A stretch of DNA of 55,084 bases from Bacteroidaceae bacterium (GTDB taxonomy: Bacteria > Bacteroidota > Bacteroidia > Bacteroidales > Bacteroidaceae): the NCBI GenBank assembly GCA_017645655.1, contig JAGCNZ010000121.1:1-55084 (forward strand), in the 5' to 3' direction. A program made the translations under genes and the position numbers. Position 1 is the stretch's first letter; each line of letters opens with the position of its first letter. Below, in pieces: positions 2,685 through 53,953 of this stretch. The notes beneath the pieces were generated by a model that saw only the letters and a list, made by a program, of their open reading frames with translations, had not been told where the DNA came from and searched no databases.

Positions 2685-2800
2685 CATGCTGTGTTTGTCA
2701 ACTTAGCACGTGTCGTTTGAAATTATTACAAGTAATATTTCAAATATTACACGTGTCGTTTACAATTTAGGCACGTGTCGTCAGACAACCAGGCATGTGC
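2685..2800 (+). repeat. CACGTG phased array, copy A
   Basis: CACGTG-type cores start at 2685 (CATGCT), 2707, 2729 (degenerate CAAGTA), 2750, 2772 and 2794 (CATGTG), so the steps are 22, 22, 21, 22, 22. The 21-bp unit contains the near-palindrome TAATATTTCAAATATTA. The copy is diverged, with TGTCGTTT after the core where other copies have TGATAATTT. It lies between the promoter of the exported protein and the 3' end of the MlaD gene. Confidence 0.75.
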
Positions 2801-3705: not shown

Positions 3706-3715
3706 CTCACTTTTA

Positions 3716-8168: not shown

Positions 8169-8253
8169 TCTTAGCGGCCGCCGTGAACATTTTTGGCGGG
8201 CGCTACGGTTTCTTTTGGCGGGCGCCGTGAATTCTTTTGGCGGGCGCCAAAAC
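8169..8253 (+). repeat. 22-bp tandem array with GGCGCC cores
   Basis: Four units begin at 8169, 8191, 8213 and 8235, an exact 22-bp period. Units 2-4 share TTTTGGCGGGCGC; unit 1 is degenerate. The cores are GCCGCC (8177), GGCGCT (8199), GGCGCC (8221) and GGCGCC (8243). It lies in the 386-base gap between the zinc-ribbon gene and the ABC-F gene. The rest of that gap has no gene I can support. Period and T-tract phase resemble the CACGTG arrays. Confidence 0.75.
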
Positions 8254-10551: not shown

Positions 10552-12339
10552 ATGCACAAAAGTGAACTTGAAGGAATGACTCTGGCAGAGCTTACTGCGC
10601 TTGCCGGAGAACTCGGTGCGGAACTTAGTAACGACCAGACAACACTCATCTACAACATATTGGATGCCCAATCTCTGCAGGCTCCTGTGGATTCTGCCCC
10701 GAAAAAGAGAGGCAGAAAGCCAAAGACAGCAGAACCTGCGACTGCCTCCGCCGCCGAGGAGAGCGTAAGCAAAGAGGCAGAAAAGGCAGCCGAGGCTGCT
10801 CCCGCTCCGAAGAAGCGTGGACGCAAGACCAAGGCAGAAAAGGAAGCGGAGAAGCAAGCGGAGGCAACCGAAAAAGCCGCCGCTGAGCAACCCGAGCAGA
10901 AAGAAGTGGCAGCGGAGCCTGCCGCTGAAGAGAAACCGGCTCCCGAGAAGAAGCGTCGCAAACGCATTGGAGAGACAAAGGCAGCAGAGGCAGCAGCCGC
11001 AGCAGCTGAGGACGCAGGCAACAAAAAGCAGTCGGACTCTCCTCAGGAAAACATCGCAGGAGCCGCTTCTGCTGACTTCATCATCATTCAGGACATCCCA
11101 TCAGCAGAGGAACAGGCAAAGGCAATAGCTGTAGCCCCCTCTAAACCTCCCCGAGTGGAGACATCTATACCCTCCCCATCGGTGGAGACGGAGGGAAACC
11201 GTGGAGCCTCCTCCTACAACTTCGGCGAGAACATTCGCGGCGAAGGCGTGCTCGAAGTGATGCCCGAAGGCTTTGGCTTCTTGCGCAGCAGCGACTATAA
11301 CTACCTGAGCAGCCCCGACGACATCTACGTCACACAGCAGACCATCAAGCAATACGGCCTGAAGACTGGCGACGTGGTGGAGGGTCCGGTGCGTCCCCCA
11401 GTGCGCGGCGAGAAGTTCTTCCCCCTGATTCGCGTGGAGCGCATCAATGGTTGCAACCCCGACACGGTACGCGACCGCAGTCCTTTCGAAAACCTTACGC
11501 CGCTCTTCCCGGACGAGAAGTTTAAGCTCTGCAAAGGCCAGGGCGACTCACTCTCCGCTCGTGTGGTGGACCTTTTCGCACCCATCGGCAAGGGCCAACG
11601 CGCGCTTATCGTGGCACAGCCTAAGACCGGCAAGACGCTTTTGATGAAGGACATTGCCAATGCCATCGCGGCTAATCACCCCGAGGCATACCTCATGATG
11701 CTGCTCATCGACGAGCGTCCTGAGGAAGTTACCGATATGGCACGAACGGTGAAGGCAGAGGTGATTGCCAGCACATTTGACGAACCGGCCGAGCGTCACG
11801 TCAAGATAGCGGGCATCGTCCTCGAGAAAGCAAAGCGCATGGTTGAGTGCGGACACGATGTAGTCATTTTCCTCGACTCGATTACGCGTCTTGCGAGAGC
11901 CTACAACACTGTTTCACCCGCCAGTGGTAAAGTGCTGAGTGGTGGTGTCGACGCCAATGCCCTGCACAAGCCAAAGCGGTTCTTCGGAGCTGCGCGAAAC
12001 ATCGAGAACGGCGGCAGCCTGACCATCATCGCCACTGCTCTCATTGATACGGGCAGCAAGATGGACGAGGTGATATTCGAGGAGTTCAAGGGAACCGGCA
12101 ACATGGAGCTGCAGCTCGACCGTATGCTCTCAAACAAACGCATCTTCCCGGCTGTCAACATCGTGGCCAGCAGCACGCGTCGCGACGACTTGCTGCAAGA
12201 CAAGTTGACACTCGACCGCATGTGGATTCTGCGCAAGTTCCTGGCAGACATGACGCCCATCGAGGCCATGAACGAAGTCAAGTCTCGCCTCGAGAACACG
12301 GAAAACAACGAGGAATTCCTGCTTAGCATGAATTCGTAA
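10552..12339 (+). CDS. rho: Transcription termination factor Rho with long N-terminal extension
   Basis: The 595-residue protein begins with a Rho-N-type segment ([15 protein letters not shown]). A disordered Lys/Ala/Glu/Pro linker follows (about 40-220) with repeated KKRGRK-type basic patches, then the RNA-binding cold-shock-like domain ([17 protein letters not shown]) and the hexameric ATPase. Walker A is [10 protein letters not shown] and Walker [17 protein letters not shown]. The linker is a known feature of Bacteroidetes Rho. Residues 194-219 (DNA 11131-11208) look like a CCTCC/GGAGG intergenic repeat captured in frame. The gene is monocistronic with its own promoter and terminator. Confidence 0.95.
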
Positions 12340-12481: not shown

Positions 12482-12580
12482 CACGGGATAATTCCATTTT
12501 ACCCACGTGATAAATTCATTTTACCCACGTGATATTTTAAATATTACACGTGATAATTTTGTTTTACCCACGTGATGATT
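12482..12580 (+). repeat. CACGTG phased array, copy B
   Basis: Cores start at 12482 (CACGGG), 12504, 12526, 12547 and 12569, so the steps are 22, 22, 21, 22. Units are joined by T-rich spacers ending TTTTACC; the 21-bp unit carries ATATTTTAAATATT. It lies between the convergent 3' ends of rho and dedA, after the rho terminator. Confidence 0.85.
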
Positions 12581-19960: not shown

Positions 19961-20060
19961 CACGTGATGATTGAAAACTTAACACGTTATAATTGCAAAT
20001 ATCACACGTTAAAAATAAAATATTACACGTGATATTTTCAATCAACCCACGTGACGTTTT
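19961..20060 (+). repeat. CACGTG phased array, copy C
   Basis: Cores start at 19961, 19983 (CACGTT), 20005 (CACGTT), 20026 and 20048; steps 22, 22, 21, 22. The leading unit has GATGATTGAAAAC after the core and the trailing unit ends GACGTTTTCC, as in other copies. It lies between the hisH promoter region and the 3' end of the DUF3276 gene. Confidence 0.85.
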
Positions 20061-23558: not shown

Positions 23559-24002
23559 ATGCTTGAAACTATCTTAGCGATCTCCGGCAAACCCGGACTT
23601 TTCAGACTCGTATCGCGAGGCAACCACAGCCTCATCGTTGAAACAATCGACGCGCAGAAGAAGCGTTTCCCTGCATTCTCGGCAGATAAGGTCATCTCGC
23701 TGGCCGACATCGCTATGTACACAGACGAGAAGGAAGTGCCTCTGCGCCAGGTGCTGAACAGCATCAAGGCGAAGGAAAGCGGCAAAACAGCCTCCATCGA
23801 CTATCGCAAAGCATCGAAGGATGAGCTCTATGCTTATCTTGGAGAGGTGCTGCCCAACTACGACCACGACCGCATCTACCCGGGCGACATCAAGAAACTC
23901 GTTCAATGGTATAACATCCTTGTCGACAACGGCTTGACAGACTTTGATGAAACCCTTAAAGAAACTGAGGGAGACAACGTCGACGACAGGAAAGAGAAGT
24001 GA
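23559..24002 (+). CDS. DUF5606 family protein
   Basis: The 147-residue protein begins MLETILAISGKPGLFRLVSRG and contains IDAQKKRFPAF and ISLADIAMYTD, as in the Bacteroidetes DUF5606 proteins. There is no signal peptide or membrane segment. The C-terminal 15 residues are acidic and disordered. It is the last gene of the nusB operon. Its function is not known to me. Confidence 0.75.
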   Translation: MLETILAISGKPGLFRLVSRGNHSLIVETIDAQKKRFPAFSADKVISLADIAMYTDEKEVPLRQVLNSIKAKESGKTASIDYRKASKDELYAYLGEVLPNYDHDRIYPGDIKKLVQWYNILVDNGLTDFDETLKETEGDNVDDRKEK

Positions 24003-24007
24003 CCCAA

Positions 24008-24170
24008 CACGTCGGAACACACATCATGGCGTGCTGCGTTTTCCGACGCGGCACGCTGTGTCTTCAAACGACCCACGCGATAAATTCATTTTACCCACGT
24101 AATATTTTAAATATTCCACGTGATATTTTCATTTTACCCACGTGATAATTTTGATTTACCCACGTGACGT
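24008..24170 (+). repeat. CACGTG phased array, copy D (longest)
   Basis: Cores start at 24008 (CACGTC), 24030 (degenerate), 24052 (CACGCT), 24074 (CACGCG), 24096 (CACGTA), 24117, 24139 and 24161; steps 22, 22, 22, 22, 21, 22, 22. The 21-bp unit has AATATTTTAAATATTC. The array occupies most of the gap between the convergent 3' ends of the DUF5606 and rlmD genes. Confidence 0.88.
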
Positions 24171-32115: not shown

Positions 32116-32222
32116 CACAATAATAACGTAAGCAAGCCCCTTTTTATTGCTTAAATCATTGTTTTTGGTGATAAAGGAGAAAAAAAGTCGGCATTTCCTA
32201 TGTCATTATCACTAAAAAAGAT

Positions 32223-32230
32223 TATCTTTG
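32223..32230 (+). promoter_or_regulatory. -7 box of the ferredoxin gene
   Basis: TATCTTTG lies 44 bases before the ferredoxin ATG. Confidence 0.6.
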
Positions 32231-32273
32231 CAACCGAAAACTAACGAAATACTAACTAAAGGTAAATTAAACT

Positions 32274-32438
32274 ATGGCTTACGTAATTAGTGACGATTGT
32301 GTTGCTTGCGGCACATGTATCGACGAATGTCCCGTAGGAGCTATCTCCGAAGGCGAAAAGTATTCAATCGACCCCGAGCAGTGCACCGAGTGTGGCACTT
32401 GCGCTGACGCATGCCCCAGCGGCGCTATCTCTCTCTAA
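32274..32438 (+). CDS. 2[4Fe-4S] ferredoxin
   Basis: A 54-residue protein has two clusters of CxxCxxCxxxCP: CVACGTCIDECP and CTECGTCADACP. This is the clostridial-type ferredoxin that carries low-potential electrons, for example for pyruvate:ferredoxin oxidoreductase. It has its own promoter and a strong terminator, so it is a separate, probably highly expressed unit. Confidence 0.95.
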   Translation: MAYVISDDCVACGTCIDECPVGAISEGEKYSIDPEQCTECGTCADACPSGAISL

Positions 32439-32460
32439 TCGAGAAACAACACATTTACAC

Positions 32461-32496
32461 AAAGGAGGATGTATCTGCGGATGCATCCTCCTTTTT
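32461..32496 (+). terminator. Terminator of the ferredoxin gene
   Basis: AAAGGAGGATG pairs with CATCCTCCTTT around a loop of about 10 bases, followed by a T run. Confidence 0.85.
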
Positions 32497-32504
32497 CATG
32501 GCAG

Positions 32505-32625
32505 CGTGTCGTGATGAAAAACTACCCACGTGATAAATTGATTTTACCCACGTGATATTTGAAATATTCCACGTGATATTTTCATTTTACCCACGTGATA
32601 ATTTCGTTTTACCCACGTGATGTTT
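32505..32625 (+). repeat. CACGTG phased array, copy E
   Basis: Cores start at 32505 (CGTGTC, degenerate), 32527, 32549, 32570, 32592 and 32614; steps 22, 22, 21, 22, 22. Five of six cores are exact. The 21-bp unit is ATATTTGAAATATTC between cores. It lies between the ferredoxin terminator and the 3' end of the metallophosphatase gene (convergent). Confidence 0.9.
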
Positions 32626-32655
32626 GGAAACCAGGCGTGCGTGGCGAGATGAACA

Positions 32656-37962: not shown

Positions 37963-38080
37963 CACGCGATGATGAAAAACATCACACGGGATAAATTAAT
38001 TTTACCCACGTGATATTTGAAATATTCCACGTGATAATTTCATTTTACCCACGTGATAAATTTATTTTACCCACGCCACG
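37963..38080 (+). repeat. CACGTG phased array, copy F
   Basis: Cores start at 37963 (CACGCG), 37985 (CACGGG), 38007, 38028, 38050 and 38072 (CACGCC); steps 22, 22, 21, 22, 22. The leading unit has GATGATGAAAAAC as in copies E and G. The array ends 2 bases before the stop codon of the YolD-like gene. Confidence 0.9.
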
Positions 38081-43306: not shown

Positions 43307-43445
43307 AACGTGGGTAAAATGAAATTATCACGTGGGTAAAATCAATTTATCACGTGGAATATTTCAAATATTACGTGGGTAAAATCAATTTATCACGTGG
43401 GTCGTTTTTCATCATCGCGTGGAGCACGTGGAAACTTGGCGTGGA
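43307..43445 (-). repeat. CACGTG phased array, copy G (inverted)
   Basis: Cores start at 43307 (AACGTG), 43329, 43351, 43372 (TACGTG), 43394, 43416 (CGCGTG) and 43438 (GGCGTG); steps 22, 22, 21, 22, 22, 22. An extra CACGTG lies out of register at 43425. Read on the minus strand the units have the same order as in copies D-F. It lies between the rubredoxin promoter and the asnS terminator. Confidence 0.9.
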
Positions 43446-43457
43446 ATTCCCGGTAAG

Positions 43458-43490
43458 ACAAAAAGAGCCTCCGCTTTCGGCAGAGGCTCT
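43458..43490 (-). terminator. Terminator of asnS
   Basis: AGAGCCTC (43464-43471) pairs with GAGGCTCT (43483-43490). On the minus strand the stem is followed by TTTTTG. Confidence 0.8.
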
Positions 43491-44977: not shown

Positions 44978-46228
44978 TTACTCGAAGGCACCCATCCTCA
45001 GCATGTTGACCTCCTGTTCAGTCAGGAAACGCCAATCGCCGCGACGCACGTTCTTCTTGGTCAGGCCAGCAAAGTAAACACGATCCAGGCGGATAACCTT
45101 GTAGCCAAGATGCTCGAAGATGCGACGCACGATGCGGTTCCTGCCGCTGTGAATCTCGATGCCCACCTGCTTGCGGTCAGTCTCGCTGGCATACTCGACA
45201 GCATCTGCATGGATTTCTCCGTCTTCAAGTTCGATGCCGTCGGCAATCTGCTTCATGTCCGCAGCAGTAACATTCTTGTCGAGATACACGTGATAAATCT
45301 TCTTTTTAAGGAACTGCGGATGCGTCAACTTAGTAGCCAACTCACCATCATTCGTGAGAAGAAGCACGCCGGTGGTGTTTCTGTCGAGTCGTCCGACAGG
45401 GTAGATACGCTCGCGACATGCGCCCTTCACGAGGTCCATCACCGTCTTGCGGTTCTGCGGATCGTCGGCCGTCGTCACATAGTCCTTGGGTTTATTCAGA
45501 AGTATGTACACCTTCTTTTCGATGCTGACGAGCTGATCGTGGAAATGCACCTCGTCTGAACGCTTCACCTTGGTGCCGAGCTCAGTCACTGTCACGCCGT
45601 TTACCTTGACGACACCGGCAGTGATGAAATCGTCTGCCTCACGGCGCGAGCACACACCAGCATTGGCAAGATACTTGTTCAGGCGTATTGGCTCGTCCGG
45701 ATCGACGTGGGTCTCCTTGTATTCAATCTGCTTCTTCATGCTATATTTAGCATGAGGATTGTAGCCGGTGCGGGGACGACGGCCGCCGCGGGCGCCTCCA
45801 TTTGGTGAGTAACCACTGCGGGATTGGTAACCTCCCTCGCGAGGCTGATAACCTTCACGTGGCTGATAACCTCCTTCACGGTTGTAACGTGGACGAGGCT
45901 GGTAGCTACCTTCGCGATTGATGCGTGGACGAGGTTGATAGCCTCCCTCTCTCTGTTGGTATCCACCGTCGCGTTGCTGGTAACCGTCGCGTTGCTGGTA
46001 GTTTCCGCCATCACGGTTATAACGTGGACGATAGCCGCCTTCACGCTGCTGATAGCCGCCCTCGCGGTTGTATCTGGGACGTGGTTGGTAGCCGCCTTCC
46101 TTGGGTTGGTAGCCGCCTTCCTTGGGTTGATAACCTCCTTCACGGTTGTAACGTGGACGATAGCCATCCCGGCGTTCGCCACTCTCTCCTTCGGAGAATT
46201 TGTCTCTCCAGTTTTCTTCGTTGTACAT
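44978..46228 (-). CDS. RluB/RsuA-type rRNA pseudouridine synthase with repetitive N-terminal extension
   Basis: The 416-residue protein has an S4 RNA-binding domain (about 178-235: [18 protein letters not shown]). A pseudouridine synthase domain follows with the catalytic Asp in [21 protein letters not shown] and the C-terminal [19 protein letters not shown]. The first 150 residues are a tandem, Arg/Gly/Tyr/Gln-rich, disordered repeat ([11 protein letters not shown] type), like RGG-box RNA-binding segments. asnS follows after 29 bases. Confidence 0.88.
45775..46190 (-). repeat. Tandem coding repeat in the pseudouridine synthase gene
   Basis: The DNA encoding the N-terminal extension is made of repeated 12-30 base units for [11 protein letters not shown] and [11 protein letters not shown]. 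Exact copies lie side by side near 46085-46125. Such DNA can gain or lose units in frame. Confidence 0.7.
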
Positions 46229-47652: not shown

Positions 47653-48339
47653 CAACATTTTCTTCACAATTCATAATTCTGCACAACATTTTATTCAAAA
47701 ACACGATTCGAGTCGGTCAGGACAGCACTGATAAGCACCAAGTAAAGGCAGAGAGACGGGCAGAGGACATTTTGACACTTTGCAAGCAAAACCGCCGATT
47801 TTGCTTACACCACAGTTTCAGGCAAACGCTCCAGAATCGCGTAAAATCCCTTCGCCGGCAGTTTGTAGCCCTTTTACAAAAAGACGCGCTTAAAACGAAA
47901 GTGTTTCAGAACAACCTCTGCCACAAGCGGTTGCAAGCGACACTCCATTTTCACCCTTCAATTTTCAATGGTCAAATTGCCATCTCCGCTTAGCAAAACA
48001 GGGCGTTTTTGCACGTTTTTGCACACTTTTCGGCACGCATTTTCTACTGACGATGCGCGGGAATATTTCAAATATCACGTGGAATATTTGCATTTATCAC
48101 GTGGAGTGTTTGAAATCATCCCCAGCCGCGACAACATTTTTGCCCTGTTTCGCTCGGTTTTTCGACTGTGCAAAAAGTGTCATATTGCAAGCAAAAGCAG
48201 GAATTTCGTTTACAGATGAATTCCGGCAAAACGTTCCGGCACAGGCAGCCCGACACAGCCCGGACGACACCGGCAAGTACGAAAAGAGCCCGACCGAAAT
48301 GACGGCCGGGCCCTGTTGCTGTAGGATGACTGGCGACGC
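47653..48339. other. Gene-free 690-base spacer
   Basis: I find no credible gene on either strand; the open frames have no family words and no promoter. The spacer holds a hairpin (GCAAGCAAAA at 47782 with TTTTGCTTAC ending 47808), T-rich TTTTTGCAC repeats near 48006-48025 and the partial CACGTG array copy H at 48055-48105. Its right end (48240-48339) lies after the 3' end of the PepSY-like gene. Confidence 0.6.
48055..48105 (-). repeat. CACGTG phased array, copy H (inverted, partial)
   Basis: Cores start at 48055 (GCGCGG, degenerate), 48076 and 48098; steps 21 and 22. The 21-bp unit has GAATATTTCAAATAT, identical in type to copies E-G. The outer units are missing. Confidence 0.75.
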
Positions 48340-51435: not shown

Positions 51436-53878
51436 AACCTTTTGGGCTGCGCTCGCCCTACTCACATTACCATTGATGGCGTCGGCCGAGACAAAAGACC
51501 TCTCAGGCATTCGCCTGGCTGGCCCCTACCCTATAACAAAACCATTTATGACTGACTCGCTCGATAGCGAAGGCAATCGCATCGATTTAGATAACGTCTT
51601 GATGGATGCTTTTGCGAAGACTGATATGTGGAAAGACAAGCCCTCTGTCGAAGAGATAGTTCTTTCTGCTACAGAAGAAGCTCAGGTATATATAGCAGGC
51701 TTTAACATGCAGAACATTGGCTATGCTAAGGGCAAGATTAATGTGAAATGCGAGAGCAAGCACAAACTCTTCATCGACGGGAACGAGCAGGGCGGCGACT
51801 TCGAACTCGTTCCTGGCAGACACGAAATAAGCATCAAGCTGCTTCGGAAAGGCGAGAAGCCCGATACGCTTCGTGTCTCCATCGAATGCGAACAAGCACT
51901 CGACATCAATCCCGAAGGAAAACGCTATTGGACGAATGCCGACATGATGCACGGCGAACGCATCAATGGCGTAGACCTTTCCAGCTCGGGCAAGTACGTC
52001 CGCATCCACAAAAGCATTACTTATAAGGGAGGCGAAACGGAAGGTAAAGACATCTTCATCGACCTAACAACTGGCAAGGAGTTCAGTCTCGACGGTTTCC
52101 AAAGGTGGCTGCCTAAAGGCGACCGTTACCTGCGCAGCTATCGAGAGACAGAAGGCACCCGCTGCTACGAGACGGTTGACCCCAAGACAGGCGAGCACAC
52201 CTTCATCGGCAAGTACAGCGGCAAAGGTTACGCCCAGCTTACCGAAGACTTGAAGCATTTCCTCGTGACCATCGACGAGAAGGTGCCTGAAGAGAAGAAC
52301 AAGGATGTTCATCAGATACTCGAGCCCGACGATCGACAGCCCGGCTGGCGCAATCGCCGCAACTACTCGCTCTATGACATCGAGACCGGCATCACGACGC
52401 CCATCACCAAAGGTGCTCGCAATGCCTATGTTACACCTAATCGCGATGCGAGTCGCTTCCTCGTTTCTATTTATAAAGAAGAACTGACAGAACGCCCCTT
52501 CAGCTTTACTGATGTGCTGCTATTCGACCCTGCTACAGGAAAAGCTGACACACTGATTCGTCACGATGGATTCATCAGTTCATTCCGTTTTTCGCCTGAC
52601 GAGAAGTACATAGCCATCACTGGAAGTCCTGAGGCTCTTGGCGGCATTGGTAACACACTTCCGGAAGACGTTACACCCAGCAGCTATGAATATGAGCTGT
52701 TCATCATGAACCTCGAAACGAAAGAGATTCGTTGTCTGACTCGCGACTTCGACCCCTCTGTCACTTCATATCATTGGTCGAAACAGGACGGTATGATTTA
52801 CGCTTTATGTGAGAACCGCGACCTGAAGAGCCTCTACCGCATCAATCCAAAGGATGGAAAGGCCGAGATGTTGCCACTCTCGGAACCTTATATATATAGT
52901 AGCTTCAGTCTTTCTGAGGAGAAACCTTTGCTCGCATATATTGGTGAGAGCAGCATGAGCACCGACCGTTGCTGGCTGCGCGACCTTAAGACGGGCAAAG
53001 AGAAAGTGCTTTGCAACCTCAACCCTACCCGACTGAAAGACATACAACTTGGCAAATGTCAGGATTGGAACTTCAAGGCAGAACGCGGCGACACGATTTA
53101 TGGCTGCTACTACCTGCCACCCTTCTTCGACGAGACGAAGCAATACCCGATGCTCGTCTATTACTACGGCGGCTGCTCGCCTGTAGGCAGAGTGCTCGAC
53201 AGCTACTACAACTATCAGGAATGGGCAGCGATGGGTTATGTGGTTTATGTCATTCAGCCATCCGGTTGCAGCGGCTTCGGTCAGGAGTTCGCTTCGCGCC
53301 ACGTGAATGCTTATGGCGATTATACAGCCGACGACATCATTCAGGGCACCAAGCAGTTCTGCAAAGAACATCCTTTCGTTAAAGCCGACAAGATTGGTTG
53401 CATGGGAGCAAGTTATGGTGGCTTCATGACAATGTATCTGCAGACAGTGACCGACATCTTTGCCGCTGCTATGAGCCATGCAGGCATCAGTAATCCTGCC
53501 AGCTATTGGGGCTATGGTTATTGGGGCTATACCTACAGTACGACCTCTGCAGCACATTCCTACCCGTGGAACAATATGGAACTTTACAGCGGTCATGCGC
53601 CCCTCTTTAACGCCGACAAAGTCCACACGCCAATCCTCTTCATGCATGGGGGCGCAGATACAAATGTGCCGATAAACGAGAGCATTCAGATGTTCACAGC
53701 CCTCAAACTGCTTGGTCGCGAGTGTGCCTTCATCACAGTCGAAGGCGAGAATCACCACATCCTGAACTACAACAAACGCATTCGTTGGCACGACAGCATC
53801 ATGGCATGGTTTGCAAAGTGGCTGCAAGACGACCCGACCTGGTGGAACTCGATGTATCCGGAGAAGAATATTAAGTGA
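51419..53878 (+). CDS. S9 family prolyl-oligopeptidase-like peptidase
   Basis: The 819-residue exported protein has a signal peptide (to about LMASA), a beta-propeller-like region (about 150-560) and a C-terminal alpha/beta hydrolase domain. Catalytic residues are Ser665 in MGASYGGFM, Asp747 in GGADTNVP and His779/780 in GENHHIL. Family members (DPP-IV/AAP type) trim peptides, often after proline. The ATG lies inside the end of relA, so translation is probably coupled. Confidence 0.92.
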   Translation: MYQEVKTFWAALALLTLPLMASAETKDLSGIRLAGPYPITKPFMTDSLDSEGNRIDLDNVLMDAFAKTDMWKDKPSVEEIVLSATEEAQVYIAGFNMQNIGYAKGKINVKCESKHKLFIDGNEQGGDFELVPGRHEISIKLLRKGEKPDTLRVSIECEQALDINPEGKRYWTNADMMHGERINGVDLSSSGKYVRIHKSITYKGGETEGKDIFIDLTTGKEFSLDGFQRWLPKGDRYLRSYRETEGTRCYETVDPKTGEHTFIGKYSGKGYAQLTEDLKHFLVTIDEKVPEEKNKDVHQILEPDDRQPGWRNRRNYSLYDIETGITTPITKGARNAYVTPNRDASRFLVSIYKEELTERPFSFTDVLLFDPATGKADTLIRHDGFISSFRFSPDEKYIAITGSPEALGGIGNTLPEDVTPSSYEYELFIMNLETKEIRCLTRDFDPSVTSYHWSKQDGMIYALCENRDLKSLYRINPKDGKAEMLPLSEPYIYSSFSLSEEKPLLAYIGESSMSTDRCWLRDLKTGKEKVLCNLNPTRLKDIQLGKCQDWNFKAERGDTIYGCYYLPPFFDETKQYPMLVYYYGGCSPVGRVLDSYYNYQEWAAMGYVVYVIQPSGCSGFGQEFASRHVNAYGDYTADDIIQGTKQFCKEHPFVKADKIGCMGASYGGFMTMYLQTVTDIFAAAMSHAGISNPASYWGYGYWGYTYSTTSAAHSYPWNNMELYSGHAPLFNADKVHTPILFMHGGADTNVPINESIQMFTALKLLGRECAFITVEGENHHILNYNKRIRWHDSIMAWFAKWLQDDPTWWNSMYPEKNIK

Positions 53879-53881
53879 AAT

Positions 53882-53953
53882 GGATTAGGGATTAGAGATT
53901 AGGGATTAGGGTTTGGTTGTTATAGGGATTAGGGATTAGAGATTAGAGATATG
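53882..53953. repeat. GGATTAG heptamer repeat (telomere-like simple sequence)
   Basis: Two blocks: GGATTAG, GGATTAG, AGATTAG, GGATTAG, GGTTTGG (53882-53916) and GGATTAG, GGATTAG, AGATTAG, AGATATG (53926-53953). The last unit contains the ATG of mutS2, so the repeat fills the whole gap between the S9 peptidase and mutS2. Confidence 0.75.

Follow-up and report, generated by a model that had tools for sequence, protein, structure and literature searches.

Evenly spaced intergenic arrays with a 22-bp pitch in Bacteroidales: hints of an undescribed chromosome-structuring element

Results

The window and its arrays

The window, by which we mean the whole stretch of 55,084 nucleotides that was analysed, is contig C127 of the 2.74-Mb genome (G000) of a rumen bacterium, in 130 contigs and estimated to be 84% complete. 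Its gene content is ordinary: a Rho-type gene, a class II tRNA synthetase which we read as AsnS, an adenylosuccinate lyase, a pyruvate phosphate dikinase-type enzyme and others. Judged by this AsnS, its closest named relatives belong to the uncultured rumen Bacteroidaceae/Prevotellaceae, with Reindeer_1_mag_97 at 92%, in agreement with the Prevotellaceae frame adopted in the preliminary description. The Rfam scan of the window gave no match at the gathering score.

The hexanucleotide CACGTG occurs 31 times in the window where 15.2 occurrences are expected, a number reached by 1 of 100 shuffles. Fifteen pairs of these occurrences lie at a pitch of 21-22 bp, against 0.02 expected, and none of 100 shuffles reaches 15. 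The eight places at which CACGTG arrays had been reported are thus all confirmed, with the correction that the copies at 43307 and 48055 are on the minus strand. The array reported at 24008 is real but starts at about 24074, the segment 24008-24073 being made of degenerate outer units only. The arrays and the hairpins next to them are as follows (the hairpins were recognised by eye).

2707..2799, plus strand: atypical CACGTG array, 4 cores, one step of 43
8171..8247, no strand: 22-bp array of non-CACGTG sequence, TTGGCGGGCGCC-type
12482..12574, plus strand: CACGTG array; the flanking convergent genes end at 12339 and 12634
19961..20053, plus strand: CACGTG array without the standard central unit
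24074..24166, plus strand: CACGTG array singled out in the preliminary description; convergent genes end at 24002 and 24252
32459..32498, plus strand: terminator-like hairpin and T-run, just ahead of the array at 32527
32527..32619, plus strand: CACGTG array; the orthologous gap is array-free in G443, G027, G024 and G012
37963..38055, plus strand: CACGTG array
43307..43421, minus strand: CACGTG array behind asnS
43459..43490, minus strand: terminator-like asnS hairpin, between asnS and the array at 43307
48055..48125, minus strand: short CACGTG array, exact cores at 48076-48103

The array at 8171..8247, the ninth 22-bp array of the window, occupies the widest hole between the CACGTG arrays.

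Other repeats are present in the window. The segment 47770-48039, which adjoins the array at 48055, has several dispersed DNA matches in G027, G005, G443 and G013, and the array copies at 48076 and at L137:13867 have flanks in common; this suggests a second dispersed repeat. The open reading frame 44978-46228 has internal repeats of about 18-45 nt at 45834-46160, tandem GATTAGGGATTAG-like repeats lie at 53875-53950, directly behind a gene ending at 53878, and ATTTACG-like 7-bp repeats are found at 3712, 4848, 18390, 19133, 20439 and in other gaps.

We surveyed 919,197 bases of the genome (34%), in which genes were called with a home-made hexamer-scoring gene caller. This part contains 84 arrays, or about 250 per genome by extrapolation, which means that the copies are not restricted to the window. 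Genome-wide, 515 pairs of CACGTG stand at a pitch of 21-22 bp, against 2 for the reversed pattern.

Anatomy of the arrays

The central unit of the arrays, whose definition includes its length of 21 bp, is CACGT followed by ATATTTNAAATATTM, and it is present in 60 of the 84 arrays. The unit preceding it is mostly ATAAATTSATTTTACC and measures 22 bp in 54 of 57 cases; the unit following it is ATAWTTTCATTTTACC, of 22 bp in 58 of 59 cases; the outer units drift toward GTTTGNAAAC. The unit order survives the alignment of the genome copies, since it is kept in the 60 arrays which have the central unit. The arrays are accordingly homologous, ordered and dispersed elements, as had been proposed from the window alone, with the correction that the copies at 2685 and 19961 are atypical. 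Fewer than half of the copies carry GATGATGAAAAAC, the sequence which had been described as the leading unit, and it is only one outer unit among several. What lies between the cores is found again in other arrays and does not consist of unique spacers, so that a CRISPR was rejected.

The 84 arrays contain 378 cores with at most one mismatch, 274 of them exact and 104 with one mismatch. The mismatches fall at position 6 in 71 cores, at position 5 in 21, at position 2 in 7, at positions 3 and 4 in 2 each and at position 1 in a single one. The CACG half of the core is kept and the TG half is not, without any compensating change; hence it seems that neither a cruciform nor an RNA hairpin is maintained. 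A protein reading the arrays is still the best guess, as the preliminary description had it, but the palindrome that this protein was supposed to read is not conserved, as the 71 of 104 mismatches at position 6 show. Given this one-sided conservation of the core, we would read the arrays as oriented, iteron-like repeats and not as hairpins.

When the left and right ends of 37 arrays are aligned (37 of each), a degenerate unit is found in phase on both sides and the similarity decays without a sharp end. No terminal repeats were seen at these aligned ends.

Position, direction and a possible role in RNA

The arrays are intergenic. Only 1 of the 84 overlaps a called open reading frame (L133:15907-15975), 4 are at the edges of the stretches, and the 79 others lie in gaps. 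Convergent gaps hold 25 of these 79 arrays while they make up 37 of the 230 gaps of at least 150 bp; for divergent gaps the corresponding numbers are 7 of 79 and 62 of 230. The remaining 47 arrays are in tandem gaps, 38 of them closer to the 3' end of the upstream gene.

The direction of the arrays has a mild bias with that of the genes: both agree in 28 of 40 tandem-gap arrays, and the array follows the gene with the nearest end in 39 of 62 cases. Adjacent arrays have the same direction in 26 of 41 pairs (P 0.13). Replication polarity was considered and rejected, the direction having no clear relation to the local GC skew.

A terminator-like hairpin lies between the gene end and the array in 16 of the 55 cases with room for one (44 cases were too short and were set aside), compared with 55 of 425 gene ends generally. 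Being behind gene ends, with a mild direction bias, the arrays could be thought to act at the level of RNA, as transcription terminators or as 3'-UTR structures, and several arrays of the relative G025 (L150, L152) do end in CGCACCACGGTGCG, a perfect hairpin followed by a T-run, which is terminator-like. We nevertheless consider this explanation very improbable. The fold of 40 arrays reaches only -3.1 kcal/mol, with a covariation term of 0.02, and no RNA covariation was found among these 40; the changes in the core are uncompensated; the 16 arrays just mentioned have a separate hairpin terminator ahead of them; and arrays occur in both directions. An intrinsic terminator was also rejected on the ground that the arrays of this species lack a stable hairpin followed by a T-run, and a terminator role is unlikely for them.

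Spacing along the chromosome

The arrays are more evenly spaced than chance would have it. The 47 distances between arrays in this genome have a mean of 6,552, a median of 5,412 and a coefficient of variation (CV) of 0.54; here as in the other species, long distances are truncated by stretches of 20 kb. When arrays are placed at random in the eligible gaps, with weights according to gap class, the mean CV is 0.89, and none of 5,000 permutations is at or below 0.54. If arrays are assigned to gaps by a stricter rule, which leaves 78 arrays and 45 distances, the CV is 0.51 against 0.84-0.87 under three weightings (0 of 4,000), and only 3 pairs of arrays are less than 3 kb apart where 12.8-14.2 are expected (0 of 4,000).

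Pooling all 22-bp arrays of this genome, whatever their sequence, gives a CV of 0.62-0.63 against 0.74-0.75, which is borderline (P 0.054-0.058), and pairs closer than 2 kb are rare (2 against 9.4-11.1 expected). No signal of mutual avoidance of unrelated arrays appears in this genome, where 12 arrays bear on it.

The same pitch with other letters in other species

We searched other genomes, one draft genome per species, in a way which is blind to the letters and considers only the self-similarity of a sequence under shift; as a detector of 22-bp arrays it misses degenerate ones and passes some simple repeats. The genus set, from which this species was excluded, comprised 91 loci with 491 gaps (132 kb); L016-L024 and L093 were assigned to it on the strength of AsnS identity. 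This set yields 59 arrays at 22, 8 at 21, 1 at 23 and 8 at 44. In other Bacteroidales (89 loci, 674 gaps, 162 kb) there are 10 arrays at 22 and 7 at 11. The three stretches of E. coli, which offer 84 gaps and only 20 kb, contain no array of any period, and shuffled sequences contain none either. Period 7 forms a second intergenic peak (17 in the genus set, 10 in other Bacteroidales, 13 in this species). The even spacing and the 22-bp pitch which other species have in common go beyond what the preliminary description had proposed.

The 69 arrays of pitch 22 outside this species (59 in the genus and 10 elsewhere) fall into 49 sequence families at 17/22. Their units can be as different as ACGCACCACGTTGCGACGCCCG (G025), GGTTAACCATTATCGGCAGAAA (G012), and CTATAGGGGAATGACAATCCCT and AAACTTCTGCAGTGAAGTTGGT (both G005). 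Dyad symmetry of at least 16/22 is found in 29% of the units against 2.7% of shuffled ones. Named cultured carriers among the sampled species are Hoylesella marshii, Bacteroides congonensis and Bacteroides sp. 51; in Hoylesella marshii DSM 16973 a second array family lies at L042.

A pitch that does not depend on the letters, together with the enrichment in dyad symmetry and the intergenic position, would also be obtained if the arrays were a by-product of mutation, Bacteroidales replication or repair tending to duplicate dyad-rich DNA over about two turns of the helix, with the products persisting under weak selection. This we judge improbable: it would leave aside the even spacing, the unit order and half-conserved core found across 84 arrays, and the sharpness of the peak, with 59 arrays at 22 for 1 at 23.

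Twelve other species were sampled for spacing. Ten of them carry 75 arrays in all, and none was detected in G031 (80 kb) or in G440 (20 kb), so that the element appears dispensable. The 54 distances pooled from these species, among which the long ones are cut short by stretches of 20 kb, have a median of 5,434, a mean of 6,538 and a CV of 0.62 against 0.82 (P 0.004); the pooled over-dispersion holds at four detection thresholds (P 0.002-0.012, G031 and G440 left out). Taken singly, G013 (P 0.002) and G012 (P 0.017) have a low CV, and G027, G025, G443 and G005 do not. Arrays occupy 18 of 36 convergent, 38 of 125 tandem and 19 of 71 divergent gaps in these species.

Neighbouring arrays of these species are related in sequence in 20 of 54 pairs and unrelated in 34. 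Unrelated pairs less than 2 kb apart number 2 against 5.7-6.1 expected (P 0.025-0.035 at two thresholds), a deficit which is not significant at two stricter thresholds. Mutual exclusion between unrelated families is therefore only suggestive.

Gain and loss of arrays

Using a model built from 40 arrays, we found one strong copy of the ordered array of this species in G027 and weaker matches in nine relatives, G027 included. With at most 65 candidates scored per genome, 51 of the 61 genus genomes have no match. The own-type ordered array is thus nearly private to this species.

The gap 32119-32655, behind a small gene which looks ferredoxin-like by eye, is array-free in G443, G027, G024 and G012. 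Compared with these relatives, the array in this gap resembles an insertion placed immediately after the hairpin. The corresponding gap of G033, of 1.5 kb, does carry a 22-bp array. When loci were compared in this way, relatives had an array in 3 of 10 comparisons for gaps that hold an array here and in 10 of 65 for other gaps.

These observations bear on the main rival explanation, according to which the arrays are a selfish, REP-like repeat, copied by a transposase or by gene conversion and surviving at the 3' ends of genes, close pairs being excluded by target immunity or lost by recombination. The copies are indeed ordered and homologous, the own-type array is almost private to the species, one orthologous gap is array-free in four relatives, and the position near gene ends is REP-like (PMC12306157). 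The non-autonomous spread proposed in the preliminary description is borne out to the extent that copies are gained or lost, as in the orthologous gap above, but the arrays showed neither sharp ends nor terminal repeats, and a search of this genome, which is 84% complete, yielded no RAYT. A pitch of 22 shared by 49 sequence families is not explained by the copying of one element. A selfish repeat suits this species well and fails to explain the pitch common to unrelated families; we regard it as possible but doubtful.

Six RAYT loci of relatives were inspected: 22-bp arrays lie within the stretch in two of them, and one more has a 44-bp repeat only. In G013, a 22-bp array of CTCACGAGTCATCGGCCATAAG-type directly adjoins a RAYT-type transposase gene (L158:17306-17636, L176).

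Candidate binding proteins and mobile relatives

No binder was found among the families searched, as ParB, RAYT, Rep_3 and the HU/IHF type do not fit. A ParB/Noc paralogue was rejected since each of nine genomes, this one included, has a single ParB_N match; G031 has three. The number of HU/IHF-type proteins (PF00216) does not separate the array-less G031 (4) and G440 (5) from 11 array-bearing genomes (3-8), and that of HU-HIG proteins does not do so either (7 and 6 against 3-16). An autoregulated binder was looked for next to the seven divergent-gap arrays, and none of the 10 flanking proteins scanned, out of 14, matches a DNA-binding family.

A Rep_3 initiator was sought by profile and protein search. 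It has matches in 15 of the 61 genus genomes and none in this incomplete genome. In ten of the 15 the match shows the same span; it is N-terminal in a protein of about 500 aa (L171:1285-2844, L168:670-2175, and L169:1396-2354, which runs off the locus). The L171 and L168 proteins also have Rep3_C and DnaA_N matches below the curated cut-offs. There are 22-bp arrays near the Rep_3 genes at L168 and L169 and 44-bp repeats at L171; such a protein is possibly the initiator of a second replicon.

It could then be asked whether the arrays act as iterons on the chromosome, binding an initiator of the plasmid-type Rep_3 family or titrating it. Oriented direct repeats of 22 bp are iteron-like, and the arrays near the Rep_3 genes of relatives are in line with this explanation. 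It seems very unlikely to us all the same, given the lack of a Rep_3 match in the genome at hand, the Rep_3 proteins of L168 and L171, which by eye are much alike, at odds with many unlike arrays, and the searches of mobile DNA: one array had no match in plasmid and phage records, and one unit pattern had none in viral contigs.

The generic CACGTG pattern does occur in viral contigs (L260-L272), as 13 stretches with a G+C of 0.52-0.71 and a pitch of exactly 22 bp. The 12 readable ones have unlike spacers; L261, L267 and L271 resemble each other.

Discussion

We tentatively favour, while holding it to be somewhat short of probable, the explanation that the arrays are docking platforms for a helix-phased DNA-binding protein, which would mark or insulate the chromosome every few kilobases. 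The oriented 22-bp pitch, the position, the in-phase decay of the ends and the even spacing favour such a docking array. The candidate protein would bind cooperatively, with one subunit per oriented unit, and as 22 bp correspond to two turns of the helix, successive subunits would be on one helix face. There would be a platform every 5-7 kb, behind the 3' ends of genes and above all between converging genes, serving for instance as a topological barrier or as a nucleoid anchor. From one lineage to another the recognised letters would change, by drift or by a switch, and pitch and spacing would be retained. The binding of a protein, its cooperativity and the chromosome-organising role are what we infer from these features of the arrays. 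The mild direction bias with the genes is not predicted by docking and speaks against it. Mutual avoidance of unrelated arrays would tell docking from the exclusion of repeats; it is not seen in this genome, and in the other species the evidence for it is no more than suggestive.

A wider claim, which we put forward with still more reserve, is that Bacteroidales have an architectural element defined by pitch and spacing and not by letters: units of 22 bp, about one array per 5-7 kb where present, behind gene ends. Its unit sequence would be replaced between lineages, by analogy with eukaryotic satellite or insulator DNA, and its binder would evolve fast. Repeats scattered over bacterial genomes are as a rule classed with selfish, REP-like DNA. 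Here, the even spacing and the pitch common to unrelated sequences suggest that architecture is under selection, and the same pitch with different letters in relatives hints at an undescribed chromosome-structuring element. If the binder exists, it would be a new chromosome-structuring protein, in an order abundant in the gut and the rumen. G031 and G440, array-less in the stretches sampled, are the relatives for comparison.

Comparison with known systems

Searching by titles and opening lines, in a literature which left most subscription journals outside, we found no paper on 22-bp intergenic arrays in Bacteroidales. Among the systems which can be compared, the parS sites of ParB/Noc are dispersed chromosome-organising sites with a CACGTG core. 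The arrays have this core and dispersed sites in common with them, but are tandem, with TACC and ATAA around the core in place of the parS flanks, and the genome has a single ParB match. The iterons of Rep_3 plasmid initiators are oriented direct repeats of about 22 bp, as the units of the arrays are; the arrays differ in being at hundreds of chromosomal places without an initiator gene alongside, and none was found in the incomplete genome.

REP/BIME sequences are stem-loops of 20-40 bp tagged GTAG or CGTC (PMC3733652), and REP repeats sit near gene ends (PMC12306157). Together with their RAYT they resemble the arrays in being high-copy, intergenic, near the 3' ends of genes, species-specific and partly palindromic. 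In contrast, the 103-column consensus of the arrays has, by eye, no GTAG or CGTC tag, no stem-loop is maintained, the tandem pitch is fixed at 22 bp, the spacing is even, and the 84% complete genome showed no RAYT. The BrickBuilt MITE of Porphyromonas gingivalis has, according to PMC4596501, a leader, a tail, IS5-like terminal inverted repeats, internal repeats of 23 nt and 10-20 copies. In contrast to it, the arrays number about 250, have a unit of 22 bp and are without visible terminal repeats or sharp ends; both are dispersed intergenic elements of Bacteroidales built on internal tandem repeats.
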